Of a stretch of 37,342 bases of DNA, positions 568-31,632 are shown in pieces. The notes beneath the pieces are model-generated. The model worked only from the letters and a program-made list of their open reading frames with translations. It had not been told where the DNA came from and ran no database searches. The position numbers and the translations under genes are program-made. Every line of letters begins with the position of its first letter. The first letter of the stretch is position 1. Source of the stretch: Chitinophagaceae bacterium (lineage in GTDB: Bacteria; Bacteroidota; Bacteroidia; Chitinophagales; Chitinophagaceae); the NCBI GenBank assembly GCA_017998385.1, contig JAGODE010000013.1, forward strand, positions 1 to 37,342, read 5' to 3'.

Positions 568-1968
568 CTACCCGTCCATCTTCACAATTTTCGGTGTAAA
601 CCGTCCGATAGTAGTTACCAGTTGTTTCTGAGAGTTCATGACTTCATAAATATCCTTGTAGGCAAACGGCGCTTCATCAAGACCGCCTCCCAGCAATTTT
701 ACCCCGGTTCGTTTCAACTCTTCTTTCATTGCCGCATGAGAGATCGATTGCATAGCTGCACCGCGGCTCATTCGCCGTCCTGCTCCGTGTGCCGCTGAAT
801 TAACAGCTGCAGGTTCACCTTTTCCTTTCACAATAAAGCCATCAGCAGTCATGGAGCCCGGTATAATTCCCAGCACATCTCTGCCAGCCGGAGTAGCACC
901 TTTGCGATGTACAATTACTTCCTGTCCTTCCCAATGCTCTTTCCAGGCAAAGTTGTGATGATTTTCCACCACCTTTATGGGTTTACGTCCCAGTTCGCGT
1001 GCGATCCTGGCGTGAATCACATCATGGCAGGCCCTGGCATAGTCGCCCGCAAGGTTCATCGCCAGCCAGTATTCCATACCTTCCTCCTCCTCCAGCATGA
1101 GCCAGGCAAGGTTTTTGGCATCGGCCGGAAGCCGGCGTTTACTGATTGCAATACTGGTATAATGATTGGCAATTTTTGCACCGAGCGCCCGCGACCCGGA
1201 GTGCGACAACAGACCCAGATATTGCCCCGCTTCTACTCCCAGCACCGCATCCTTTTCTTCAATCGTCACAGCGCCAAACTCCACAAAGTGATTGCCGGAA
1301 CCGGAAGTACCCAGTTGTTTCCAGGTACGACCATGCATGTTTTTTAACAGCGGCAACTGCTGAAACAATGGATCTTCCATAACGGCGTGATTACTTGCCT
1401 GTTTAAATTGGGCACCACTGCCAAAAAGCGTAGACTCATCGAGTATACGGGCAAACTGATGCTCCCGTTGCGTGAGTTCTTTGGGTGCAATGTCAAAAAT
1501 ACTCAGGCACATACGGCAACCAATATCTACGCCCACACCATAAGGTATCACTGATTGACGGGTGGCCAGCACACCGCCAATCGGCAAACCATAACCCGCG
1601 TGAGCATCCGGCATAAGTGCCCCTGCTACAGATACAGGTAATTTAGCAGCTGTATACATCTGGTGCATGGCAGCTTCTTCAATATGTTCGCTACCGAATA
1701 CATTAAACTGAATGCCACTTTTATTAAGCGATGCAGCAATTGGTTCTTTCTCCGCAGGAGGCATGAGTTTTTCCGCAATCACAGCCAGAATCGCATCCTG
1801 ACTGTATTCGACCGGAGCCGCCAGTACCCTCTTCAGTAAATTCATAACCGCCTCCTTTTTTTCAAATCTGTAATTCTTTTCCATTACCTGCATGGCCACA
1901 CTGATTGCCGGTCCTTCCGGAAAACCAATGGCCCGCAGTTCTTTTGCTATTAATTTTAATCGTCCCAT
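568..1968 (-). CDS. rtcB: RNA-splicing ligase RtcB
   Basis: A 466-residue RtcB-family ligase, which joins a 2',3'-cyclic phosphate or 3'-phosphate RNA end to a 5'-OH end using GTP and Mn2+, in the cytoplasm. All family signatures are visible: P-D-A-H-A-G-Y-G at 120-127, G-V-D-I-G-C-R-M at 146-153 (metal Cys151), T-S-G-S-G-N-H-F at 221-228 (His227), L-S-H-S-G-S-R around 254-260, E-N-H-H-N-F at 335-340 and N-S-A-A-H-G-A-G-R at 390-398, whose His394 is the expected guanylylated residue. The C-terminus K-L-L-G-G-G-L-D-E-A-P is also typical. Length is normal and no residue is missing. It is the last gene of the minus-strand cluster with the slipin, the tRNA-like RNA, the AAA+ ATPase and the DUF458 protein. 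No rtcA, archease or rtcR gene is nearby. Confidence 0.97.
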   Translation of the reverse strand: MGRLKLIAKELRAIGFPEGPAISVAMQVMEKNYRFEKKEAVMNLLKRVLAAPVEYSQDAILAVIAEKLMPPAEKEPIAASLNKSGIQFNVFGSEHIEEAAMHQMYTAAKLPVSVAGALMPDAHAGYGLPIGGVLATRQSVIPYGVGVDIGCRMCLSIFDIAPKELTQREHQFARILDESTLFGSGAQFKQASNHAVMEDPLFQQLPLLKNMHGRTWKQLGTSGSGNHFVEFGAVTIEEKDAVLGVEAGQYLGLLSHSGSRALGAKIANHYTSIAISKRRLPADAKNLAWLMLEEEEGMEYWLAMNLAGDYARACHDVIHARIARELGRKPIKVVENHHNFAWKEHWEGQEVIVHRKGATPAGRDVLGIIPGSMTADGFIVKGKGEPAAVNSAAHGAGRRMSRGAAMQSISHAAMKEELKRTGVKLLGGGLDEAPFAYKDIYEVMNSQKQLVTTIGRFTPKIVKMDG

Positions 1969-1984: not shown

Positions 1985-2085
1985 AAGGTAAAAGGCAAAG
2001 GGTGGAAGGTTAAAGGAATAAGAATATCCCTTTTTTGTTTTCCAACATTACCTTCCTCCTTTTACCATTTACCTTATCCCTTAGT
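1985..2085. repeat. Imperfect inverted repeat between slipin and rtcB
   Basis: The left arm AAGGTAAAAGGCAAAGGG (1985-2002) is matched by an imperfect complement near 2058-2081 (TTTTACCATTTACCTTATCCC). Between them a small hairpin can form (GGATA/TATCC around 2015-2030). The right arm overlaps the 3' end of the slipin gene, whose stop is at 2074. The motif is close to the one at 31561-31632, so it looks like a repeat family. It sits inside the gap of an apparent operon, where it could lower or process transcription into rtcB; that role is inferred. Confidence 0.6.
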
Positions 2086-3171
2086 GAATATTCCCTTTAG
2101 CTGATCCAGCAACGCCCCATTACCCTGGATGCTGATACTGCTGATTTTTTCAGCAATCCTTTCTACATATTCCATTTCCTTCATTTTCCAGAGAATGGCA
2201 TTATCCTCCATCAGCCTGGCGGTATTGAGCAAACTCCTGGTCTGTGCAGTTTCTTCGCGGCGCAGGATGCTATTGGCCTGTGCTTTCTTTTCGGCTACGA
2301 GTACCTGATTCATAATAGCACGAACTTCTCCGGGCAGAATTATATCACGCACACCAAAGCTCATCAGACTTACGCCCAACCCGTCAGCAATTGCTTCTAC
2401 CCGTTGCTTTACAGCGGCGGCCAGCTCTTCTTTTTTCTCCAACAGTTCATCGAGCGTAAATCCGCCTACATATTCGCGCAGGCCCAGTTGCAGGGCAACG
2501 TATAGTTGCTGATCGTAGGCCTTATTGGCAAGCACAGCCTGCTCAATATTTCCCACCGCGTACTGCGCCCAGGCATTCAGCCGCAGGGCGGCTTTGTCTC
2601 TGGTGAGTATTTCCTGTCCGTTGATCTCGAGTTGCTGTACCCGGGTATCGATACGTACCAGTACAATGCTGTTGCTGTTTTTCCACCAGTAGTATGTGCC
2701 GCCTGTCAGAATTTTTACCAGGCGCCCATCCACAAAGAGTGCAGCTTTTTCATAAGGCTCTACGGAAAGACTGCGCAGGTAGGGCACCAGCAGCGGATGC
2801 TGAAAAAGGTTTCTGTCTACTTCTTCGGGAATATCTGCTTCACCCGTATTCACGCGCACGAAGCGGTTTTTAAGAATACTTTTCCAGAAGGCGTATATGC
2901 CGGTAGTCAGTACTTGTTTAAGCAACCCGTTTTCGAAACGGAGTACAAGCTGACCATCCCCCACTTCCACTACATCCAATACACTTTTCAGTTCTTCATT
3001 TTCCAGCAACAGCCGGAGGTCTGTCGGGGCGGCAAAAGGTTGCGTGATGTCATATTTATAGACCTGTTCTCCCTTCCAGAACCAATAAGTACCTGTAGTG
3101 ATCATACGTACATATTCTTCGTTTTTAAATACCAGGCCAATTTGCCAGGCATTTACAGTCACTCTTTGCAT
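2074..3171 (-). CDS. Slipin/SPFH (band 7) family protein with a triplicated N-terminal module
   Basis: A 365-residue protein with an SPFH/band 7 domain at about 135-300: the segment around V-Q-Q-L-E-I-N-G-Q-E-I-L-T-R-D-K, the Y-A-V region, and G-V-x-L-M-S-F-G-V-R-D-I-I-L-P near 266-280. A charged helical tail (300-345) follows, as in stomatins. Unlike stomatin there is no N-terminal membrane anchor. The first 165 residues instead carry three copies of a short module ending in TG-x-Y-x-[FW]-W-K, at 25-32, 90-96 and 157-163. Slipins oligomerise into rings or scaffolds and are known from earlier comparative genomics as neighbours of RtcB in RNA-repair loci, so a scaffold role for RtcB or the RNA is likely but unproven. 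The ATG start at 3171 follows an A-rich tract with no Shine-Dalgarno site. Confidence 0.85.
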   Translation of the reverse strand: MQRVTVNAWQIGLVFKNEEYVRMITTGTYWFWKGEQVYKYDITQPFAAPTDLRLLLENEELKSVLDVVEVGDGQLVLRFENGLLKQVLTTGIYAFWKSILKNRFVRVNTGEADIPEEVDRNLFQHPLLVPYLRSLSVEPYEKAALFVDGRLVKILTGGTYYWWKNSNSIVLVRIDTRVQQLEINGQEILTRDKAALRLNAWAQYAVGNIEQAVLANKAYDQQLYVALQLGLREYVGGFTLDELLEKKEELAAAVKQRVEAIADGLGVSLMSFGVRDIILPGEVRAIMNQVLVAEKKAQANSILRREETAQTRSLLNTARLMEDNAILWKMKEMEYVERIAEKISSISIQGNGALLDQLKGIFTKG

Positions 3172-3360: not shown

Positions 3361-3425
3361 CCAATCTGCCGGTCACTGTTTTGATTTTCATCTTTGATAA
3401 GGAAGTGATGGTCTCCCTGCGTTTG

Positions 3426-3492
3426 CTACATCCTGATTGTAGTGCTCTGCCATTGAGCGTCCTCCGTTAAGGAGAGCAGGATTCGAACCTGC
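3426..3492 (-). ncRNA. Permuted tRNA elbow module B plus anticodon-like arm
   Basis: Same design as module A: T-stem GCAGG/CCTGC with loop TTCGAAT (3476-3492), a closed five-pair hairpin TCTCC/GGAGG with loop TTAAC (3461-3475, one G-T pair), a two-base linker AC, and D-stem GCTC/GAGC with the short loop AATGGCA (3444-3458). It goes on with one linker base and a perfect anticodon-like arm, stem CTACA/TGTAG with the seven-base loop ATCAGGA (3426-3442). That loop has T33 and would read as anticodon CAG. Bases 3416-3420 repeat the T-stem 5' strand GCAGG, so an alternative pairing with CCTGC exists. Confidence 0.7.
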
Positions 3493-3503
3493 ATGACACT
3501 GTT

Positions 3504-3557
3504 GCTCTACCAACTGAGCTATCGTATTACGGATTTACGAAGGGGAATCGAACCCCC
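3504..3557 (-). ncRNA. Permuted tRNA elbow module A (T-arm, closed acceptor, D-arm)
   Basis: Minus-strand order: T-stem GGGGG/CCCCT with loop TTCGATT (3541-3557). With no gap there follows a hairpin TCGTA/TACGA with a 9-nt loop (3522-3540), which takes the place of the acceptor stem. Then comes the canonical two-base linker TA (tRNA positions 8-9), then D-stem GCTC/GAGC with loop AGTTGGTA (3504-3519). Spacing and invariant bases (T54, T55, C56, A58; T8, A14, G18, G19, A21) match real tRNA, so an L-shaped elbow is expected although the acceptor is closed. Confidence 0.75.
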
Positions 3558-3720
3558 GACACACAGCTGCAGATCAGTCAGTGCGACAATGGCATACAGC
3601 TGGTTATTACCGCTGCACCAGGGTGCTTCTTTGAAGCACACCTCCGGATTGCCTCTTGACTGCTTCACTGCCTTCCAACATGGAAGCTTTTATTGATTAC
3701 CGGCTGTTACCGGTTTCACA

Positions 3721-4797
3721 TCAATTCATGATTTCCTGCGTACGCCGGAATCCTATTACCTGCTTTTCCTGCTCCTTCCCTGGTTTTTCGTTGGGATGAG
3801 CGATTTCTGCAATAGTTGCAGGAGCTTCAATCTTTGTATCCAGGCCCAGATGTGCAGCCAGCCGCTGTGCCTTGGCCACACTCAGGCGTCCAAATTCATA
3901 ACGCGCTATCAGTCTGCCCTGTCTGGTAAGCGCCTGGTCCACCAGGGTGAGGGCGTTATTGAACGTACAGATCAACTGCACATTCAGGAAATCGGCCAGC
4001 AGCCCATCCGATATGTTCAGCAGGTTTGACACAGCAGAACCCGATCCATACCGGCGGTCTGTCAGAATATTTTCCGCATCCTCAATGATCAGTACCGTAT
4101 TGGGGTGACTGATGAGCAATTGAACGAAGGATGGATCCACCAGGTGTTCTGCAACAGATGGTGAAAGGAAAAGCACTCTCTTCTTTAACCTTCCCACCAG
4201 GTATCGCAGATAGGTTGTTTTTCCCGTACCCGGCAATCCATGCAGCAGTACAATGCCCTTATCATTTTTCCGGTTGAGCCGGTTACAAATGGTTTCATCC
4301 ACCGCTTTAAAGTCGTCCTCATAAAAGAGATCAAGATCAAGCCGGGTACGACGTATATCCATTGATCGCAATTCAACCCCGGCGCGTGTTTGTACAACCA
4401 GGTTAATTTCGAGTGGTTGTCTTTTCTGTCTTTGGCGATGCTTAAACAACAGTTTCACCAGATCTTCCACCCGTTTGGGTTGTTGTCCGTCATGCAAAAT
4501 CTCGCAACAGCTGCCATCAAAACTCAGAATCACCCGCCGGTGCAGGATCATGATCGATTTATCCAGGTAAGTTGTTTTATTACCCGCCGTACGCCATTGC
4601 ATCTGGTAGACATCCACTATTTCGTCGGCTAGTTGCCTGCGGATGGTTTCGCTTGCCTTTTCGCTATCAATCCGAAAGAGTTCCTGTATATTGGGAAGTC
4701 TTCCAAAATGATAGAGATACAGTTGCCGTGCGTCCAGATAGTCATCACCGATCAGCCTGTTTAATGCCAGTGTCTTTTGCTGGCTTATAGTATCCAT
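3721..4797 (-). CDS. AAA+ ATPase of the RNA-repair cluster
   Basis: A 358-residue cytoplasmic AAA+ protein. Residues 1-150 are a specific N-terminal region without a motif I know. The ATPase core has Walker A G-L-P-G-T-G-K-T at 187-194, Walker B V-L-I-I-E-D-A-E at 235-242, a sensor 1 segment C-T-F-N-N at 277-281 and a following D-Q-A-L-T-R-Q-G-R-L, which resembles the arginine-finger region of BCS1-type AAA proteins. No membrane segment is seen. It starts 29 bases after the DUF458 gene and is followed by the tRNA-like RNA, the slipin and rtcB on the same strand, so it probably acts as a remodelling ATPase on the RNA or on a slipin assembly; this is inference. The ATG at 4797 has an A-rich lead. 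Confidence 0.85.
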   Translation of the reverse strand: MDTISQQKTLALNRLIGDDYLDARQLYLYHFGRLPNIQELFRIDSEKASETIRRQLADEIVDVYQMQWRTAGNKTTYLDKSIMILHRRVILSFDGSCCEILHDGQQPKRVEDLVKLLFKHRQRQKRQPLEINLVVQTRAGVELRSMDIRRTRLDLDLFYEDDFKAVDETICNRLNRKNDKGIVLLHGLPGTGKTTYLRYLVGRLKKRVLFLSPSVAEHLVDPSFVQLLISHPNTVLIIEDAENILTDRRYGSGSAVSNLLNISDGLLADFLNVQLICTFNNALTLVDQALTRQGRLIARYEFGRLSVAKAQRLAAHLGLDTKIEAPATIAEIAHPNEKPGKEQEKQVIGFRRTQEIMN

Positions 4798-4826: not shown

Positions 4827-5312
4827 TCATTGTACCATTTTATTGGCGCACGCAGAACTGGCAAATGCGTACGGTTTGGCGCGAAAGCTGAATCCCATAC
4901 CCCGTATGTAGCCCATTGCTTCGCGTAAGGCTTCGTTACTTTTAAACGCCGGATTAGTATTAATGTCAGCATGTACCTCCATATCTACAGAAAACCTGGA
5001 GAATATATTGCAAACCCTGTATGCCACTTCAATACTTTTGGCCACTTCAAAAAGCATGCGCTCCTTCACAGTCATCTTCTGGCGGGTTGTGTCATGCAGT
5101 ACATACATAAATCCACCTTTCCCTTTTCGGATCAGTACAATCACAGTGGCAAAATGGATTGTGCGTCCTTTCACCTGGCTATCTGTACCAATGCAGGCTT
5201 TCAGTAAATGGCCATCGTTGCATTCCTGTTCCAGCCTTCCGATAAGTTCATCTTCAATCGTTCCGGCTATTCGCTCGCCATTGAGCCTCCTCCAGGTTTG
5301 TATCTTTTCCAT
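4827..5312 (-). CDS. YkuK-like (DUF458) RNase H-fold protein
   Basis: A 161-residue protein of the YkuK/DUF458 family, predicted to have an RNase H-like fold. Visible signatures are C-I-G-T-D-S-Q at 40-46 with the first expected acidic residue (Asp44), a central V-H-A-D-I-N segment with a second Asp, and the C-terminal G-M-G-F-S-F-R-A-K-P-Y-A-F-A-S-S-A-C-A-N-K. In the relatives I recall, the last motif is A-D-K/R rather than A-N-K, so one acidic residue may be absent here. An in-frame ATG exists at 5366, but an 8-bp perfect hairpin (5339-5359) lies between the two starts, so I prefer 5312. As first clear gene of the minus-strand cluster, it could be a nuclease or RNA-binding partner of RtcB; no function is established. 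Confidence 0.75.
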   Translation of the reverse strand: MEKIQTWRRLNGERIAGTIEDELIGRLEQECNDGHLLKACIGTDSQVKGRTIHFATVIVLIRKGKGGFMYVLHDTTRQKMTVKERMLFEVAKSIEVAYRVCNIFSRFSVDMEVHADINTNPAFKSNEALREAMGYIRGMGFSFRAKPYAFASSACANKMVQ

Positions 5313-5338
5313 GGCTTTCGTTTTTATTTTTTTTAAGA

Positions 5339-5359
5339 GTGGCAGGGTTTTCCTGCCAC
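5339..5359 (-). promoter_or_regulatory. Leader hairpin before the DUF458 gene
   Basis: GTGGCAGG (5339-5346) and CCTGCCAC (5352-5359) form a perfect eight-pair stem with a five-base loop, 27 bases before the chosen ATG at 5312. No T-run follows on the minus strand, so it is not a simple terminator. It could affect mRNA stability or translation. It also argues against the upstream ATG at 5366 as the true start. Upstream at 5394-5429, an 11-codon ORF with a GTG start follows a strong AAGGAGGG site. Confidence 0.5.
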
Positions 5360-5457
5360 ATTTCATAGTTAAGGCTTAATGGAATTCTTTGATTTAAGGA
5401 AAGCGGCCCCGCTGCATCTCACGGAGCACGCTTATTTCCCTCCTTCTGCACATAATA

Positions 5458-8964: not shown

Positions 8965-9582
8965 TCAGGTAAATAAGAGCTGCCCCTGACGGGTGGCAAC
9001 CGGCATGTTCTCAAAAGAGTAGGTTCCGGCGATACGAAACGGCCACTCTCCTGCCAGTCGCTTCAGCAATAACATCCGGTCGGCAATAAAGCGCCCGCTG
9101 AATGTCTTCTGGCTGTATTCAGGCCAGCTCTTTTCATATTGCCAGGGTTTGAGCCGGGCTGCCAGTGTGATATGAGGCTCCAGGATAAAATGAGGCTTAT
9201 TATCATCATTCAGCTTCATGATCCGCTGCGTTTCCTGCCTTATTTCTTTTACCAGCTTCTGTACAGGCAACCGGCTGGCTACCTGCACATACACGCTGTG
9301 GGTGGGAAAGCTGCCGAAATCTTTCAATTCTACTTTAAAAGGAGTCACCCCCATAGCCAACTGACGCAAGCGGTTACTGATCCGCTCTTCCATCATTTCA
9401 TACTGTACAAAATTGACCAGCAGTAAGTTCGACCGGCCAAGTCCCTTACCTTCTATCTGATAGGCCGTATTGTACTCCTGCCGCAACTGGCGCACCTTAT
9501 CCCGCAACACATCAGGAAGCGGAATCACCAACTGATATTCAAAGACCCGGTAGCCGGGAATTGTTAACCCTGTTACTTCCAT
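8965..9582 (-). CDS. 2H phosphoesterase (2'-5' RNA ligase/LigT-like) with a degenerate first motif
   Basis: A 205-residue protein of the 2H phosphoesterase superfamily (LigT/2'-5' RNA ligase-like), which usually opens 2',3'-cyclic phosphates with two H-x-T motifs. The second motif is intact, H-I-T-L at 137-140 within E-P-H-I-T-L-A. At the place of the first motif, the chain reads S-N-L-L-L-V-N-F (51-58), so His appears replaced by Asn and Thr by Leu. The rest (F-G-S-F-P-T-H-S-V-Y-V, then R-L-K-P-W) fits the fold. With one motif lost it may bind rather than cleave, or use other residues. It has its own upstream region and sits between radical SAM and umuDC genes. The ATG at 9582 is the plausible start. 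Confidence 0.8.
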   Translation of the reverse strand: MEVTGLTIPGYRVFEYQLVIPLPDVLRDKVRQLRQEYNTAYQIEGKGLGRSNLLLVNFVQYEMMEERISNRLRQLAMGVTPFKVELKDFGSFPTHSVYVQVASRLPVQKLVKEIRQETQRIMKLNDDNKPHFILEPHITLAARLKPWQYEKSWPEYSQKTFSGRFIADRMLLLKRLAGEWPFRIAGTYSFENMPVATRQGQLLFT

Positions 9583-19901: not shown

Positions 19902-22664
19902 TTAAAATCTGATATTATAGTTTATAAATGGTATTACACTGCCAAAAATTGAAAGCTTATATCCATTCACCAGGCCATTTTCTGAAACGAAGTAAACCGA
20001 ATACGGGTTCTTGCGTCCCAGGAGGTTATACAATCCGATTGTCCATGAACCGTGTGTACGCTGATGCACTTTGTGGTTGCCATCTATGTTCATGGAGAAA
20101 TCCATCCGGAAATAATCCGGTATCCGGTACGCATTCCGGTCTGAATAAAGTACCCGCTGCGATCCTGCATAATAGTAGCGGCCAATAGGTAATGTTATCG
20201 GACGACCGGTACTGTACGAGCCGTTTAATGATACACTAAAACGATGGCTTACTCTGAAGTTTCCGGTAAGTGTTACGTCATGTGGCTTATCGTAGTTGGC
20301 AGGATAGAATTTACCATTGTTGACGAGGATACCCAGATCCGGATCATCTGAGCGCAACAGCACGCGCGAATAGGTATAGCTGACCCATCCATTCAGTTTA
20401 CCACCGGGTTTTTTAACCAGTACTTCCACTCCATAAGCCTTACCGCGGGTATTGATTACGTCTGTTTCAATATTCTGATTGAGCAACAGCGTAGCACCCG
20501 GTTTATAATCCAGATAATCCTGTATCCGTTTGTAGTACAGCTCAACGGATGTCTCGATCGTATTTTGTTTGAGGTTCTTATAGAATCCCAATGAAACCTG
20601 ATCGCCGCGTTGCGGCTTAATATTGGGATCGCTCAGTTTCCAGATATCAGTCGGCGCAATAGCGGTTGTATTAGACAACATATGGATATACTGACGCTGA
20701 GAGTTGTACCCTGCTTTTACTGAGAAAGAAGGGGTAAGTGAGTAGCGGATAGAAAACCGGAATTCGGGACCGGAATAGCTATTGATTACTTTTCCTTTCC
20801 CATAACTGCGGGTATCTGTGCGGTTTCCTTCAGTTACCGGCAGACCGGGTGCATAATAATCCACCGACTGCGGACCCAGGTATTGATAAAGGGAGAAACG
20901 AAGACCGGTATTAATTGACAGTTTATTGCTGGGATTGAAGCGGTGCGTAATGTACGCTGCTGACTCCAGTGCCTGCTCTGCTTCCACTTCTTCTTTTTGC
21001 ACCAGCGATCCTTTGCCATTGGGCTCATAGGTACCGGGATCCAGTTTGTAACGCAGCGTACTGAGTCCAAAATCGAAGCCGTGCTGCTGGTTGAGATAGT
21101 ACACAAAATTGGTACGCAGATACAGCTGCTGTATAGCGAATTTTAATGCAAATGCATTGGCCTCATTGGCATCGCTGGTCACTTTATACTGGTATTGATC
21201 ATAGCCGCCAATAAACTCAGCGGTAAGGCGCCGGCTGAAATTACGTTTCCATTTCAGCGAAAAGTTGCGGTTTGAATAACCATAAATTGTGTCGCTGTTG
21301 AGCGCAAAACGGTCATTGCTGAAGTACCCGGAAAAATAAAGGTTATTGGTACTGTCAATGCGGTGGCTGATACCCAGGTTCACATCCTGAAATGCAGCCT
21401 TACTGTTTTTGTATTCATCCGGAAGGATTTTCAGCAACCAGTTGGCATAAGTAGTACGGGCACCGAGAATGAAAGATGTTTTATCCTTATCAATTGGGCC
21501 TTCAAGGTGTATACGGCTGGTAACAGGTCCCACGCCAGCCGACCCGGTTATCTTTTTCTTATTCCCTTCGCGGCTATTGATATCCAGTACAGAAGCCAGA
21601 CGGCCACCAAACTTGGCAGGTATGCTGCTTTTGTACAGTTCAATCTCATTTACAACTTCGGGATTGAATGCGGAGAAAATACCGAAGAAGTGTGATGGAT
21701 TATAGATAGTAGATTCATTGTACAGGATCAGGTTCTGATCGGCTGAGCCGCCGCGTACGTTGAAGCCGGTACTGGCTTCACCCACCGTCTTTACACCAGG
21801 CAGGCTGGTGATCACGCGCAGGATATCTGCTTCACCAAATACGGAAGGAACTTTACGGATAGTTTGGATATCCAGACGCGCCACACCCATATTCACATTG
21901 GTAACGTTGAGTGTTTTGCGCGATGACACTACCACCTCTTTAAGGGTAGTGACCTGCTCAGCCAGTTCTACATCGAGCTTGCCATCGGAGTAAACAGCCA
22001 GTTGCAGTTTGGTGTCGCGCATACCGAGTCCCAGGATATTGAGTGTGTACTTACCGGCAGGCACTGTGAGTGAATAGTTTCCGTAACTGTCAGTGACGGT
22101 ATAGTAGCGTGAATCGATGAAGACAGATGCGTTTACAACAGGCTCTCCGGTTTTGGCATTACGGACCGTACCGGTTACAATTGCATTGCCCCGGGCTGTA
22201 TTGGTTTTTATTCCAATTTCATACAATTTATTCTCCGAGGTTACCACCCGGCTTTTTTTCTGTGCCAGGTCATAATCAACGAGTGAATCGGCCATGGGTA
22301 CGGGTGATGGGCGACCCGGAGTCGGGAAAAAGCCGGCTGGCAATGTAGTGGCTATTCTTGCTCCCCTGGTTACATATATGTTGTTGTCGGCATCAACTGC
22401 GAATTGAAGAAGGGTGCCTTTAAAGGCTTTTTCCAGCAGGGAGGAAAGCAATTCATTGTCTGCCCGCAGATTCACCTCGAGCGAGTCGAGTTTTTTACTG
22501 TCATAAAAAAAGTGAACCGGCGCCTGGGCTTCCAGTTTTTCAAAAAAATCCGGCAATTGCATCTTTTCAAACACACCTGTGATGCGAATCTCCGTTTTCT
22601 GACGGGCCTGAGCCTGTGTACCCAGCATTAATACAAGCAGTAGTAAGGAAGATATGATTCGCAT
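19902..22664 (-). CDS. TonB-dependent receptor with STN and carboxypeptidase-like domains
   Basis: A 920-residue outer-membrane receptor. Domain order: signal peptide (M-R-I-I-S-S-L-L-L-L, ending near A-Q-A-R), an STN (secretin/TonB short N-terminal) domain at about 23-95, a carboxypeptidase-regulatory-like beta domain (about 155-235, I-V-T-G-T-V-R-N-A-K-T-G-E-P-V), a plug (G-F-N-V-R-G-G-S-A-D-Q-N-L-I-L-Y-N) and a C-terminal barrel ending F-I-N-Y-N-I-R-F with terminal Phe. The STN domain often signals to an anti-sigma factor, but no FecR or sigma gene is seen here. Substrate unknown; the plug carries Glu-Ser-Thr in place of the usual D-G-x-P. It starts one base after the stop of the preceding gene. 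I chose the ATG at 22664, eleven codons inside the longest frame. Confidence 0.93.
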   Translation of the reverse strand: MRIISSLLLLVLMLGTQAQARQKTEIRITGVFEKMQLPDFFEKLEAQAPVHFFYDSKKLDSLEVNLRADNELLSSLLEKAFKGTLLQFAVDADNNIYVTRGARIATTLPAGFFPTPGRPSPVPMADSLVDYDLAQKKSRVVTSENKLYEIGIKTNTARGNAIVTGTVRNAKTGEPVVNASVFIDSRYYTVTDSYGNYSLTVPAGKYTLNILGLGMRDTKLQLAVYSDGKLDVELAEQVTTLKEVVVSSRKTLNVTNVNMGVARLDIQTIRKVPSVFGEADILRVITSLPGVKTVGEASTGFNVRGGSADQNLILYNESTIYNPSHFFGIFSAFNPEVVNEIELYKSSIPAKFGGRLASVLDINSREGNKKKITGSAGVGPVTSRIHLEGPIDKDKTSFILGARTTYANWLLKILPDEYKNSKAAFQDVNLGISHRIDSTNNLYFSGYFSNDRFALNSDTIYGYSNRNFSLKWKRNFSRRLTAEFIGGYDQYQYKVTSDANEANAFALKFAIQQLYLRTNFVYYLNQQHGFDFGLSTLRYKLDPGTYEPNGKGSLVQKEEVEAEQALESAAYITHRFNPSNKLSINTGLRFSLYQYLGPQSVDYYAPGLPVTEGNRTDTRSYGKGKVINSYSGPEFRFSIRYSLTPSFSVKAGYNSQRQYIHMLSNTTAIAPTDIWKLSDPNIKPQRGDQVSLGFYKNLKQNTIETSVELYYKRIQDYLDYKPGATLLLNQNIETDVINTRGKAYGVEVLVKKPGGKLNGWVSYTYSRVLLRSDDPDLGILVNNGKFYPANYDKPHDVTLTGNFRVSHRFSVSLNGSYSTGRPITLPIGRYYYAGSQRVLYSDRNAYRIPDYFRMDFSMNIDGNHKVHQRTHGSWTIGLYNLLGRKNPYSVYFVSENGLVNGYKLSIFGSVIPFINYNIRF

Positions 22665-29101: not shown

Positions 29102-31486
29102 CTATTCCAGTATCTGCTCTATACGGGTGAGTTTACCATCGCGTGTCATCCCTTCGATTACTACCCGGAATGCCTGCGAAAAATCATTGTTATAAAAACT
29201 GAAGTTGATCTTTTCTTTACCCGGACTGGCTATCAATTGCGGATTCCAGTAAAGAGTGGTACGCATATCTTTCTTATCCTGATCCTGCTTGAATGAGCTA
29301 TAGTTGGGTGAATAAAATTCGCGTATAGCCGTATAACCGGTGACCACATTACTGGGCAATCCTTTGCCCGGTTCCGATTTCACATCATTGCCCTTCCGTG
29401 TATAAATAGCAATCGCTCCATTGGCACCATTGATAGAACCCATAAATGGCGGGCGTAACACTTTTATATAGGCAACATCGCTTGCGGATATGGAAGATAT
29501 CATGGTGGCATCGGTGGGAATTTCATTAAGGAAAAGCTGGGGAGTGCCGCCGCGCCACTGCATGGAAGGATTACCTCCTGCCGCATTAGTAATTTGCAAC
29601 CCGGCTACTTTGCCCTGCAGATAAGTAAAAATATTGAGATTGGCTGATGCCAGCGGATCACTCAACAGGTCAAACGAATATCCATCGCCTCCTGAAAAAA
29701 GTCCGGAAGCGTATTTTTCATCCATCAGTTGCTCGGGTGTCTTTGTTCTTGATTTTACGACCACATTCTCCAGCAGTTTGCCTTCATAGAGTTTTAGCAG
29801 ATCCTGCTCCTGTTTTGCCAGCTGCATATGCCGGTAAAAACCGGTAGTGTCTGGCGAAGGATTGGCGAAGCGTCCACTCGCACTGAGATTTGATGTGAGT
29901 GCCGGCAACTTGTTTTCCAGGAATCGCACGCTGGCACTGTTCATCTTTTTGCCTTTCGAAAACTGGTAATAAATCGTAGTGGAATCGAAAAGAATAAGGG
30001 TGGGTTCCACAAACTGTCCATCGGGCTGCAACTGTACCACCATCACATTTCCTTCTGCATTCTTGGGTTTGCTCATTAAGATGATGGATTGCGCTTCCTT
30101 CAATTCAGCAGCTGTAGCTCCGTACACCCGGCCTGATACCGTCAGATATGTAGTATCGCGGGGATAACTGATAGTGGGCAATTTGCCGCTGGCCACGTCT
30201 TCCCACTTAAAGCGACGCCAGCCGTGGGTCAGCATTACCAGATCCAGATGACGGGCCACGGTGTCGCTGGTGCTGCTGAAATAATAGCCCGGCTTATAGA
30301 CCTGGCCTTTCAAATCGCCGGTAAGCAGCAAACGGGTTATAATGTTATCGCTGCTGTCTGTTTCTATACCTGCATCTGTAATCGATACCGAAAGATTAGC
30401 CGTCAGATTATCCGGAATGGTTACTTCTATATCATTACGGGCTCTCTTGTTCATGCCCCAGTGTTTTACTTCCAACCCGGGCGTAAACACATATTCCTGA
30501 TTATTAATATAAGTGATTCGCTCGGCAAGCGGCTGCCATTTGTCGTCAAAAGCTGTAATAGTCAGGATACCGGAGGGCAAATCCTGGGTTGGTATCACTC
30601 CTTTTATTTCACCGGCCTTACTGTCTTTTGCCAGTTTAAATACCATTACCTGGCCCATAGTGCCAACGAGATAAATCTGTCCGGGATCAAATGATCCGCC
30701 CCGCTCTACTGATACTGCGAAATATCTTTTGTCTTTGATGGGAGATACCTGCAATGTTATACCGGTTGCTTTTGCCGACGGCAGGGGCGTTTTCTTTTCT
30801 GTACCACGTGCATCTTTCCATACTGCGGTAAATACATCACCGGTATTGGGAGTAATAAAGACCACACCCATACCATCGTGCTGCACGCGAAGGCTGTCTA
30901 TCACTTTACCAGCAGCGTTGGTCACTACTCCTTTTATATTTACCGGTATGCCATATTCGTCATGGGCTTTAAATGCCACTTTATTCACTAAGCCCTGTAT
31001 CATATCGCCACCTTCAGGAAAAAATTCGAGATAAGTAGCTGGCTGGGGCTTGTTTTTGGCAACACCGGATGCCTGCAGCACGCGTATATCTTTATTGTAC
31101 AAAAAGGCTGAATCAAAATTGAGCATCCACCGCGTATAACCGCGGGCATGGATGTATTTTCCGGTGTAACCGGCCGGCAGATCAAACTGACCGTTTGTAG
31201 TTCCTTCGTAAAGCGGGCTTGATGTGCGGCCAATAAGTTTTCCTGTCTCATCGGTCCAGTCGATATAGAAATTCTTGCTCGCATCGGCCGGAAACGGGCC
31301 TTCCATAAGGTATACCTTAAACCAAATAGTCTCACCCGGCGAATAAGCGGCCTTGTCGTAATGCAGATAAGCCCGCTCCTGTGAGAATTCTGCGCCGTAA
31401 CGCTCCAGTGTGGATTCAAAATTTTGCGCCTGCAGCCCGGCAAAGGTCAGGAATAAAAACAGTAACGTACAGCTCAGACGGATCAT
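29102..31486 (-). CDS. Exported MG2/TonB-plug-like protein B
   Basis: A 794-residue exported protein, related to protein A at 15141-17519. A signal peptide (M-I-R-L-S-C-T-L-L-F-L-F-L-T-F-A-G-L-Q-A) is followed by an MG2 domain (E-R-A-Y-L-H-Y-D-K-A-A-Y-S-P-G-E-T-I-W-F), then by beta domains including an F-F-P-E-G-G-D-M block near residue 155. A plug-like region lies at about 600-700 (Q-L-F-L-N-E-I-P-T-D-A, then D-V-A-Y-I-K-V-L-R-P-P, then G-A-N-G-A-I-A-I-Y) with no barrel. Both proteins end with the T-T-L-x-W-x-P module and a small beta domain. The combination points to a periplasmic or outer-membrane role, but no function is established. It is first in the operon with M61 and amidase. Start ATG 31486. 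Confidence 0.82.
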   Translation of the reverse strand: MIRLSCTLLFLFLTFAGLQAQNFESTLERYGAEFSQERAYLHYDKAAYSPGETIWFKVYLMEGPFPADASKNFYIDWTDETGKLIGRTSSPLYEGTTNGQFDLPAGYTGKYIHARGYTRWMLNFDSAFLYNKDIRVLQASGVAKNKPQPATYLEFFPEGGDMIQGLVNKVAFKAHDEYGIPVNIKGVVTNAAGKVIDSLRVQHDGMGVVFITPNTGDVFTAVWKDARGTEKKTPLPSAKATGITLQVSPIKDKRYFAVSVERGGSFDPGQIYLVGTMGQVMVFKLAKDSKAGEIKGVIPTQDLPSGILTITAFDDKWQPLAERITYINNQEYVFTPGLEVKHWGMNKRARNDIEVTIPDNLTANLSVSITDAGIETDSSDNIITRLLLTGDLKGQVYKPGYYFSSTSDTVARHLDLVMLTHGWRRFKWEDVASGKLPTISYPRDTTYLTVSGRVYGATAAELKEAQSIILMSKPKNAEGNVMVVQLQPDGQFVEPTLILFDSTTIYYQFSKGKKMNSASVRFLENKLPALTSNLSASGRFANPSPDTTGFYRHMQLAKQEQDLLKLYEGKLLENVVVKSRTKTPEQLMDEKYASGLFSGGDGYSFDLLSDPLASANLNIFTYLQGKVAGLQITNAAGGNPSMQWRGGTPQLFLNEIPTDATMISSISASDVAYIKVLRPPFMGSINGANGAIAIYTRKGNDVKSEPGKGLPSNVVTGYTAIREFYSPNYSSFKQDQDKKDMRTTLYWNPQLIASPGKEKINFSFYNNDFSQAFRVVIEGMTRDGKLTRIEQILE

Positions 31487-31560
31487 CAGTAATCAGATTT
31501 ACAGACAGGAAAGAAATGACCCTGTAAATTAAGTTAAGAATGGAAAGTAAACAAAGAATG

Positions 31561-31632
31561 AAGGAATAAGGTAAAAGATAAAAGGCAAAGGAATGTTAAG
31601 AATCCCTTTGCCTTTTACCTTTTTCCTTATCC
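31561..31632. repeat. Intergenic inverted repeat of the AAAAGGCAAAGG type
   Basis: A perfect 13-bp core TAAAAGGCAAAGG (31579-31591) and complement (31605-31617), continued by imperfect outer arms (about 31561-31578 and 31618-31632, GGAATAAGG against CCTTATCCC). It lies between the icmF stop (31639) and the start of MG2 protein B (31486). Its motif matches the repeat at 1985-2085. It may end the icmF transcript. The 152-base gap holds no gene. Confidence 0.75.

Follow-up and report, generated by a model that had tools for sequence, protein, structure and literature searches.

Burroughs and Aravind reportedly described, in 2016, a novel non-coding RNA that resembles tRNA and is cognate to the SPFH/Band-7 modules of RNA-repair operons. 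The permuted tRNA genes of algae and archaea give rise to ordinary tRNAs after splicing, and tmRNA consists of a tRNA-like part plus pseudoknots. As far as the excerpted text of the respective reports goes, YrlA RNAs are encoded in RNA-repair operons near rtcB (PMC7790460), and in Pseudomonas aeruginosa an SPFH gene is located within the rtc locus (PMC13086221). A 26-tRNA operon, rtcB and the genes for a slipin and an AAA ATPase are under joint repression by TrcR in Anabaena, and this repression is relieved under translational stress (PMC10272220, in excerpt).

The locus presented here is part of a stretch of 37,342 nucleotides (contig JAGODE010000013.1, positions 1 to 37,342; hereafter the window) from a Chitinophagaceae bacterium, the assembly of which (GCA_017998385.1) comprises 4.8 Mb and is 91.55% complete. 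On the minus strand follow one another an RNase H-like gene (4827..5366; PF04308, Pfam E 3.4e-34), which recurs at many of the best 80 of 574 related loci, an AAA+ ATPase gene (3721..4797; PF00004), an RNA element, the gene for slipin, an SPFH/Band-7 protein (2074..3171; PF01145; connected with the RNA by adjacency and co-occurrence), and the RNA ligase gene rtcB (568..1968; PF01139, E 3.3e-79). Sequence reading and Pfam agree with a preliminary description of this DNA in placing the element between the AAA+ and slipin genes. PADLOC returned nothing convincing in the window (mad8 at E 8e-4 for the AAA+ protein). The possibility that the slipin locus derives from a virus or phage was rejected because no relative was found in IMG/VR with the patterns used and no phage match in INPHARED. 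About 4 kb upstream of the locus, at 8965-9582 (minus strand), a 2H phosphoesterase of the 2'-5' RNA ligase family (PF13563) is encoded, which could be a candidate for a further RNA-end enzyme. Another contig of the same genome, C11, carries two adjacent RlaP matches and a second RtcB about 9 kb apart (20581-21706, 30530-31609), possibly a second RNA-repair locus.

According to three multi-locus alignments the whole RNA element extends approximately over 3385..3705 (minus strand). The interval 3401..3639 given originally does contain the core, but the RNA is larger, with an added 5' domain and a 3' pseudoknot. From 5' to 3' (all features on the minus strand), it begins with the hairpin CTTCCA(TGT)TGGAAG (3672..3686) and a closed 7-bp hairpin, GTGCTTC(AAA)GAAGCAC (3623..3639), the latter being present as first reported. 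Both covary in an alignment of 32 rows, the first with double changes at 3 of 5 pairs, the second with 11 and 7 double changes at two pairs. The stretch at about 3590..3620 had been taken for a third D-arm. Alignment and covariation led us to reject this: it is a conserved non-tRNA hairpin with near-invariant flanks and a covarying inner stem, reads AGUGCAG...CUGUAUGCU in relatives, and is a candidate protein-binding site. Hence the window holds two tRNA modules and not three.

Module 1 (3499..3566; covarying helices 1-4) has the order CTGT, variable stretch GTGTC, T-arm, closed acceptor hairpin, TA, D-arm, A, ACAG. The T-arm (3557-3541) has a 5-bp stem and the loop TTCGATT and is abutted without a gap by the closed acceptor hairpin of five pairs (3540-3522); the linker TA leads to a GCTC/GAGC D-arm (3519-3504) with GG in the loop. 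An outer stem is formed by CTGT (3566-3563) and ACAG (3502-3499). It is the anticodon stem of a tRNA that is opened in its anticodon loop and has its acceptor ends joined. After a spacer of six bases, module 2 (3426..3492; covarying helices 5-8) follows with the order T-arm, closed acceptor hairpin, AC, D-arm, A, anticodon arm. Here the T-arm (3492-3476) has a 5-bp stem and the loop TTCGAAT, the abutting acceptor hairpin (3475-3461) has five pairs, the outermost being U-G, and the linker AC precedes a GCTC/GAGC D-arm (3458-3444), again with GG in the loop. The anticodon arm (3442-3426) is complete, with the 7-nt anticodon-type loop ATCAGGA. Module 2 is thus a tRNA opened between the variable stretch and the T-arm, again with joined acceptor ends. 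An H-type pseudoknot with the stems AGGGAG/CTTCCT and CATC/GATG (3389..3418) completes the element. The T-arms, closed hairpins, linkers and D-arms are as the preliminary description had them; it had overlooked the CTGT/ACAG closing stem, the anticodon arm of module 2 and the pseudoknot. Circular permutation, as it had proposed, applies to both modules, not however as one layout but with two different break points.

Further conserved pieces are found between the pseudoknot and slipin (3384-3172), where pairings of the GCCTGC/GCAGGC and CACTT/AAGTG types can be seen by eye in relatives. The RNA may reach closer to slipin than about 3385.

The comparative analysis started from 574 relatives found by scanning with slipin; the best 80, all loci from named Bacteroidota genomes, were retained. 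A strict parser handled 41 of the resulting 81 loci (window plus the best 80 of 574) and failed on 40; after 9 of the 41 had been set aside as misparsed or divergent, 32 rows remained, 31 of which were used in the module alignment. Pairing of the T-arm, closed hairpin and D-arm was a selection criterion for these 31 rows; the module 1 outer stem, the module 2 anticodon arm and the Levitt pair were not among the criteria. The alignments of the 5' domain and of the pseudoknot side contain 32 and 30 rows, respectively, chosen by eye from the 81.

In the 31 loci including the window, the 34 pairs of the two modules were formed in 97.8% of 1037 cells, compared with 75.8% in shuffles, and none of 500 shuffles reached any of five measures. 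The search with a covariance model and a check for compensatory changes, which had been suggested as a test, found the stems kept, with double changes at 31 of the 34 pairs. The outer stem of module 1 was paired in 94.4% of cells with double changes at all 4 pairs (31 loci); counted over 32 rows, its first four pairs were formed in 121 of 128 cases (92 expected, maximum of 107 in 2000 shuffles). The anticodon arm of module 2, with 5 bp and a 7-base loop, was present in 29 of 32 rows. Among these 29 arms U33 occurred in 24, a purine at position 37 in 28 and A38 in 28, and the anticodon itself varied across rows. In 29 of 30 loci the pseudoknot keeps its register, and its second stem shows compensatory changes (CATC/GATG, CACC/GGTG, CAGC/GCTG, CGCC/GGCG, GCATCC/GGATGC, ACGCA/TGCGT). 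Since a pseudoknot finder score of 16 was reached not only by all 30 observed stretches but also by 21.7% of the shuffled ones, the case for the pseudoknot rests on the register and these changes.

The window's own fold supports the element weakly: in the single-sequence calculation the z-score was -1.78, 5 of 100 shuffles folded as well, and in the predicted minimum-energy structure module 2 was fully paired as expected, whereas the pairs of module 1 were all missing. Compared with a locus from the same genus (L037), identity was 96.4% in the 5' domain, 92.3% in the core and 97.5% in the pseudoknot, and 88.3% in the stretch up to slipin. Judged by these comparisons of sequence, the element is, beyond chance, a conserved structured RNA.

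The tertiary core points in the same direction. The Levitt pair 15-48 was G-C or A-U in 30 of 31 rows for module 1 (p 9e-4) and in 28 of 31 rows for module 2 (p 7e-6), where it joins the base before the T-arm with the D-loop downstream of the T-arm. In the ordinary reading, in which D-arm 1 is combined with T-arm 2, no Levitt link was detected in the same 31 rows (p 0.095, opposite sign). Among the 50 held-out loci, 26 without two clear T-arms were dropped, and of the remaining 24, 3 could not be read for module 2 and 1 for module 1; the pair was found in 18 of 21 for module 2 (p 9e-4) and in 22 of 23 for module 1 (p 0.087). Since related sequences are not independent, all these p values are too small.

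Ordinary tRNA genes were rejected as an explanation, in line with the original view that no free acceptor end exists. The permuted closed acceptor hairpins were paired in 98.6% (module 1) and 90.7% (module 2) of cells, compared with 54.2% for the ordinary acceptor, which is near the value of slid registers (44.5-51.6%); the two ends of a module do not form a free acceptor stem; the Levitt pair follows the permuted fold; and ARAGORN called no tRNA anywhere in the window. A T-arm is succeeded by a closed hairpin, a T[A/G] linker and a D-arm in 85 of the element's 134 cases, compared with 11 of 283 in called tRNA genes. Taken as a whole, the element is matched at threshold by no Rfam 15 family, and the single match above threshold within it, to the plain tRNA model (34.1 bits), spans the module junction in an alignment with mismatched acceptor pairs and nearly no anticodon arm. 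tmRNA was likewise rejected. It shares a tRNA-like part and a pseudoknot with the element, which however has no free acceptor; only a 15-base fragment matched in the window (13.3 bits, threshold 47), and the true tmRNA of the genome is located elsewhere (contig C97, 143.9 bits).

A decayed tRNA gene array, the arms of which survive by chance, is already contradicted, and we attach next to no probability to it. It could draw on the 34.1-bit match across the module junction, on the real tRNA genes found upstream in 57 of the best 80 of 574 relatives and on the ARAGORN tRNAs that overlap the element in 3 of them (L078, L108, L116). Yet it is the permuted fold, not that of tRNA, with which the compensatory changes agree, and the element persists beside slipin where the fetched stretch has no tRNA genes, as in the window. 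A second copy in the genome, as decayed pseudogenes might have left, was sought and rejected: the window scores 126.7 bits, and besides short matches only model matches of up to 44.9 bits were found, within the range of tRNA pairs.

The order of halves in module 1 is that of the algal and archaeal permuted tRNA genes. It could thus be imagined that RtcB, whose gene is in the locus, joins the anticodon-loop ends of module 1 and that the acceptor loop is opened by other enzymes, so that a functional or circular tRNA results. We consider this very improbable. Unlike in the permuted tRNA genes, the acceptor closes into a tight hairpin, and module 1 is followed by a further permutation that is broken at a different place. 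The closing loops of 3-4 bases over 5-7 pairs, which are common in the acceptor hairpins of the parsed loci, leave little room for processing, and rtcB is absent downstream in half of the best 80 of 574 loci as fetched.

The nearest analogue is YrlA (RF02553), to the tRNA part of which the layout had been likened. This holds: a T-arm, a closed hairpin replacing the acceptor, a two-base linker and a D-arm, all inside an outer stem, are common to both. The element scores 33.7 bits with the YrlA model (E 3e-5), under the gathering score of 69. In contrast to YrlA, it combines two modules in tandem, each with a break point of its own, with a 5' domain and a pseudoknot, and its partner is slipin. 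A Ro60 gene, the absence of which had been pointed out, was not found, TROVE/Ro60 (PF05731) being unmatched in the assembly; as this is 91.55% complete, such a gene may still be missing from it. The idea of several modules strung together is right as regards the tandem, but the window has two, and three occur only in one relative (L078) with a duplicated module 1; the other relatives have one or two.

A tRNA-like RNA coupled to SPFH in RNA-repair systems is also what the 2016 abstract of Burroughs and Aravind is said to report. In our data, the tRNA-like RNA is directly beside the SPFH gene at 16 of 17 matches of at least 85 bits, and RNA-repair genes occur in the same locus, rtcB in the window and RlaP beside slipin in some relatives. 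It is therefore doubtful that this is a wholly new kind of system, as had been supposed; the kind is known, given that YrlA has one such module and an SPFH-linked tRNA-like molecule was reportedly named in 2016. In the titles and abstracts searched, a scope outside which most subscription papers and the 2016 survey lie, the tandem RNA is undescribed. As far as this literature goes, the new features are two modules in tandem that are broken at different points, tertiary pairs that covary, the pseudoknot and an association with tRNA arrays.

How closely the element is linked to slipin was seen with a covariance model comprising the two modules only, built from 31 loci. It matched the window as well as all of the best 80 of 574 loci at 150-720 nt before slipin. 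In each of these 80 the element is upstream on the same strand, the end of the match being 81-506 nt (median 291) away from slipin. Of the 81 matches, 63 (including the 31 model builders) scored at least 74.7 bits, the best match elsewhere, within a tRNA array, reaching 70.4 bits; the remaining 18 scored 46.4-63.1 bits, in the range of tRNA pairs, and rest on their position beside slipin. Both T-arms were present in 57 of the best 80 of 574 loci, one was recognisable in 22 and none in one, so the tandem is not essential.

When the model alone was run on 395 Bacteroidota genomes, some match at E <=0.001 was obtained in 368, mostly with scores of tRNA pairs. Seventeen places, the window included, scored at least 85 bits, and at 16 of them slipin is the next gene downstream on the same strand; two of the others (G035, G029) and the window are also among the loci from which the model was built. 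Outside the host family, 12 of 13 matches of this strength precede slipin. None of 13 loci taken from matches of 63-77 bits had slipin within 1.5 kb. In 195 genomes of the host family the RNA (E <=1e-13) was found in 30 and slipin (E <=1e-20) in 43, and both in 29 (hypergeometric 7e-23). The only genome with the RNA and without slipin (G068) had a match of 77.1 bits; in 14 of the 43 slipin genomes no RNA match reached the threshold.

The preliminary description had noted rtcB beside the element, as beside YrlA. The gene is encoded downstream in 40 of the best 80 of 574 loci, several fetched stretches ending early, and RtcB cannot therefore be the sole partner. Genes of RlaP (PF10127), a polymerase family of RNA repair, follow slipin in three relatives (L041, L045, L098); by tblastn 15 of the best 80 of 574 loci contain RlaP, L113 having it upstream, and neither rtcB nor RlaP was seen in 35 of the 80. 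An AAA+ homologue is upstream of slipin in 27. As the linkage to slipin is near-strict and wider than that to rtcB, the constant partner is, on the gene order of these genomes, slipin and not rtcB. Taken together, the alignments and the distribution across genomes demonstrate two permuted modules with different break points, a pseudoknot and linkage to slipin.

In the relatives a further component is found upstream. Outside the element, ARAGORN called 289 tRNA genes in about 288 kb upstream, all on the slipin strand, compared with 17 in 307 kb downstream (best 80 of 574 loci; the upstream count omits the three calls overlapping the element). At least one upstream tRNA gene is present in 57 of these loci and at least three in 42, and the tRNA nearest to slipin is Phe(GAA) in 32 of those 57 loci. 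We infer that the arrays constitute a reserve set tied to RNA repair. Arrays comprise up to 13 tRNA genes and extend up to 4 kb upstream of slipin (L037-L116), Phe, Lys(TTT), His, Asn and Ile(TAT) being the commonest; the window's own locus has no ARAGORN tRNA gene. A tRNA array also goes with rtcB, slipin and AAA ATPase genes in Anabaena, there through common repression; however, the Anabaena genes are dispersed, with locus numbers of their own and trn located on a megaplasmid, and the parts of the report covered contain no permuted RNA (PMC10272220).

In some relatives (for instance L071 and L083) a leader motif, GTTCTTTAAAATATTG, was noticed at a distance of about 140-235 nt ahead of the modules; it is absent from the window. 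At least 13 of its 16 bases occur in 20 of 78 loci, 2 of them on the reverse strand, with the consensus drawn from the same loci. A similar sequence, GTTCTTTGACATATTG, occurs in three rRNA operons from two relatives, within the 16S-23S spacer, and the motif may serve as a boxA-like site of antitermination.

Between the RNA and slipin, a promoter motif was found in none of the best 80 of 574 loci, and a terminator-like site on the slipin strand in only 2. With nearly no such motifs in between, the RNA and slipin are likely cotranscribed. The same finding would fit a cis-acting leader of the slipin-rtcB transcript, which senses cut or uncharged tRNA or tRNA-binding enzymes and alters downstream expression. 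The constant same-strand position upstream of slipin (median 291 nt before it), the conserved stretches continuing toward slipin and the lack of an RtcR-like regulator among the ten window proteins scanned with Pfam would suit such a leader. No clear terminator appeared in the scans, however, the distance to the start codon varies widely (81-506 nt), and two complete tRNA-like modules plus a pseudoknot exceed the needs of a switch. On balance we hold a cis-acting leader to be rather unlikely.

Slipin loci beyond the Bacteroidota were also inspected. In Citrobacter the gene order is rtcR, slipin, RlaP. Stretches from the enteric bacteria Citrobacter and E. coli (L160 5547-5994, L161 5469-5997) show, by eye, a T-arm with a closed hairpin before slipin, and before slipin they also contain what we take to be a sigma-54-like site. 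The model scores only 12.8 and 15.3 bits on them. At least 80% of the E. coli stretch is carried by 1621 of 5426 complete E. coli genomes. Enteric slipin loci may hide a simpler member of the same RNA group. At a slipin locus of Subdoligranulum (Clostridia; L162, 5659-5720) two back-to-back T-arm-like hairpins are visible, with a closed hairpin after the second; by eye this looks like another permuted arrangement.

What could such an RNA do? A possible interpretation, which we think has about an even chance of being correct, is that this conserved RNA upstream of slipin, with its two closed-acceptor permuted tRNA modules, is a tRNA-mimic scaffold that docks a slipin assembly, and RtcB if present, onto damaged tRNAs. 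After transcription as part of the operon, the RNA would be excised and persist as a stable molecule. Its closed acceptors would prevent charging or tailing, and because of them charging of the RNA as encoded is ruled out. With its acceptor ends joined and its anticodon loop open, module 1 would imitate a tRNA cut by an anticodon nuclease. The proteins of the locus would bind the RNA, RtcB and RlaP would be the repair enzymes where present, and the tRNA arrays would replace tRNAs beyond repair. The conservation of the tRNA cores suggests that tRNA-binding surfaces matter; together with the closed acceptors and the near-strict slipin linkage, it favours the tRNA-mimic scaffold.

Alternatively, the RNA could be a decoy, with the module 2 anticodon loop and the tRNA-like cores soaking up anticodon nucleases and thereby sparing the real tRNAs. 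The anticodon arm of module 2 keeps U33 and purine 37 while the anticodon varies, nearby tRNA arrays would restore losses, and a role as competitive inhibitor has been proposed for the tRNA domain of YrlA by Hughes et al. (PMC7790460, in excerpt). On the other hand, no second T-arm can be recognised in 22 of the best 80 of 574 loci, an anticodon loop is missing from module 1, the nearly strict slipin linkage would be superfluous for a decoy, and fragments of Salmonella YrlA were undetected according to the same excerpt. We therefore regard a decoy function as unlikely.

The tRNA-mimic scaffold could be extended to a tRNA damage particle, a counterpart of Y RNA and vault particles, in which a soluble SPFH cage is loaded with the two-mimic RNA and with RtcB, RlaP and a reserve tRNA array. 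One mimic would stand for an anticodon-cut tRNA, the other for an intact anticodon arm, and the particle would capture, repair or replace tRNAs hit by anticodon nucleases. In structure prediction slipin appears to have three five-stranded repeats resembling the first SPFH subdomain; among the families listed in the comparisons, its likeness to the major vault protein is suggestive for the whole model only and not for the first 180 residues alone. A particle of this kind is a speculative and, at present, improbable extension.

With the element described here, an exact and testable secondary and tertiary plan is available for an RNA that travels with slipin across the Bacteroidota. Within this one RNA, the tertiary contacts of tRNA are kept by selection in two different circular permutations. 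SPFH proteins, repair by RtcB and RlaP and spare tRNA arrays, which have been seen apart elsewhere, are joined in one type of locus. If the RNA carries slipin and RtcB to cut tRNAs, this would explain the role of SPFH proteins and of Y-like RNAs in RNA repair.
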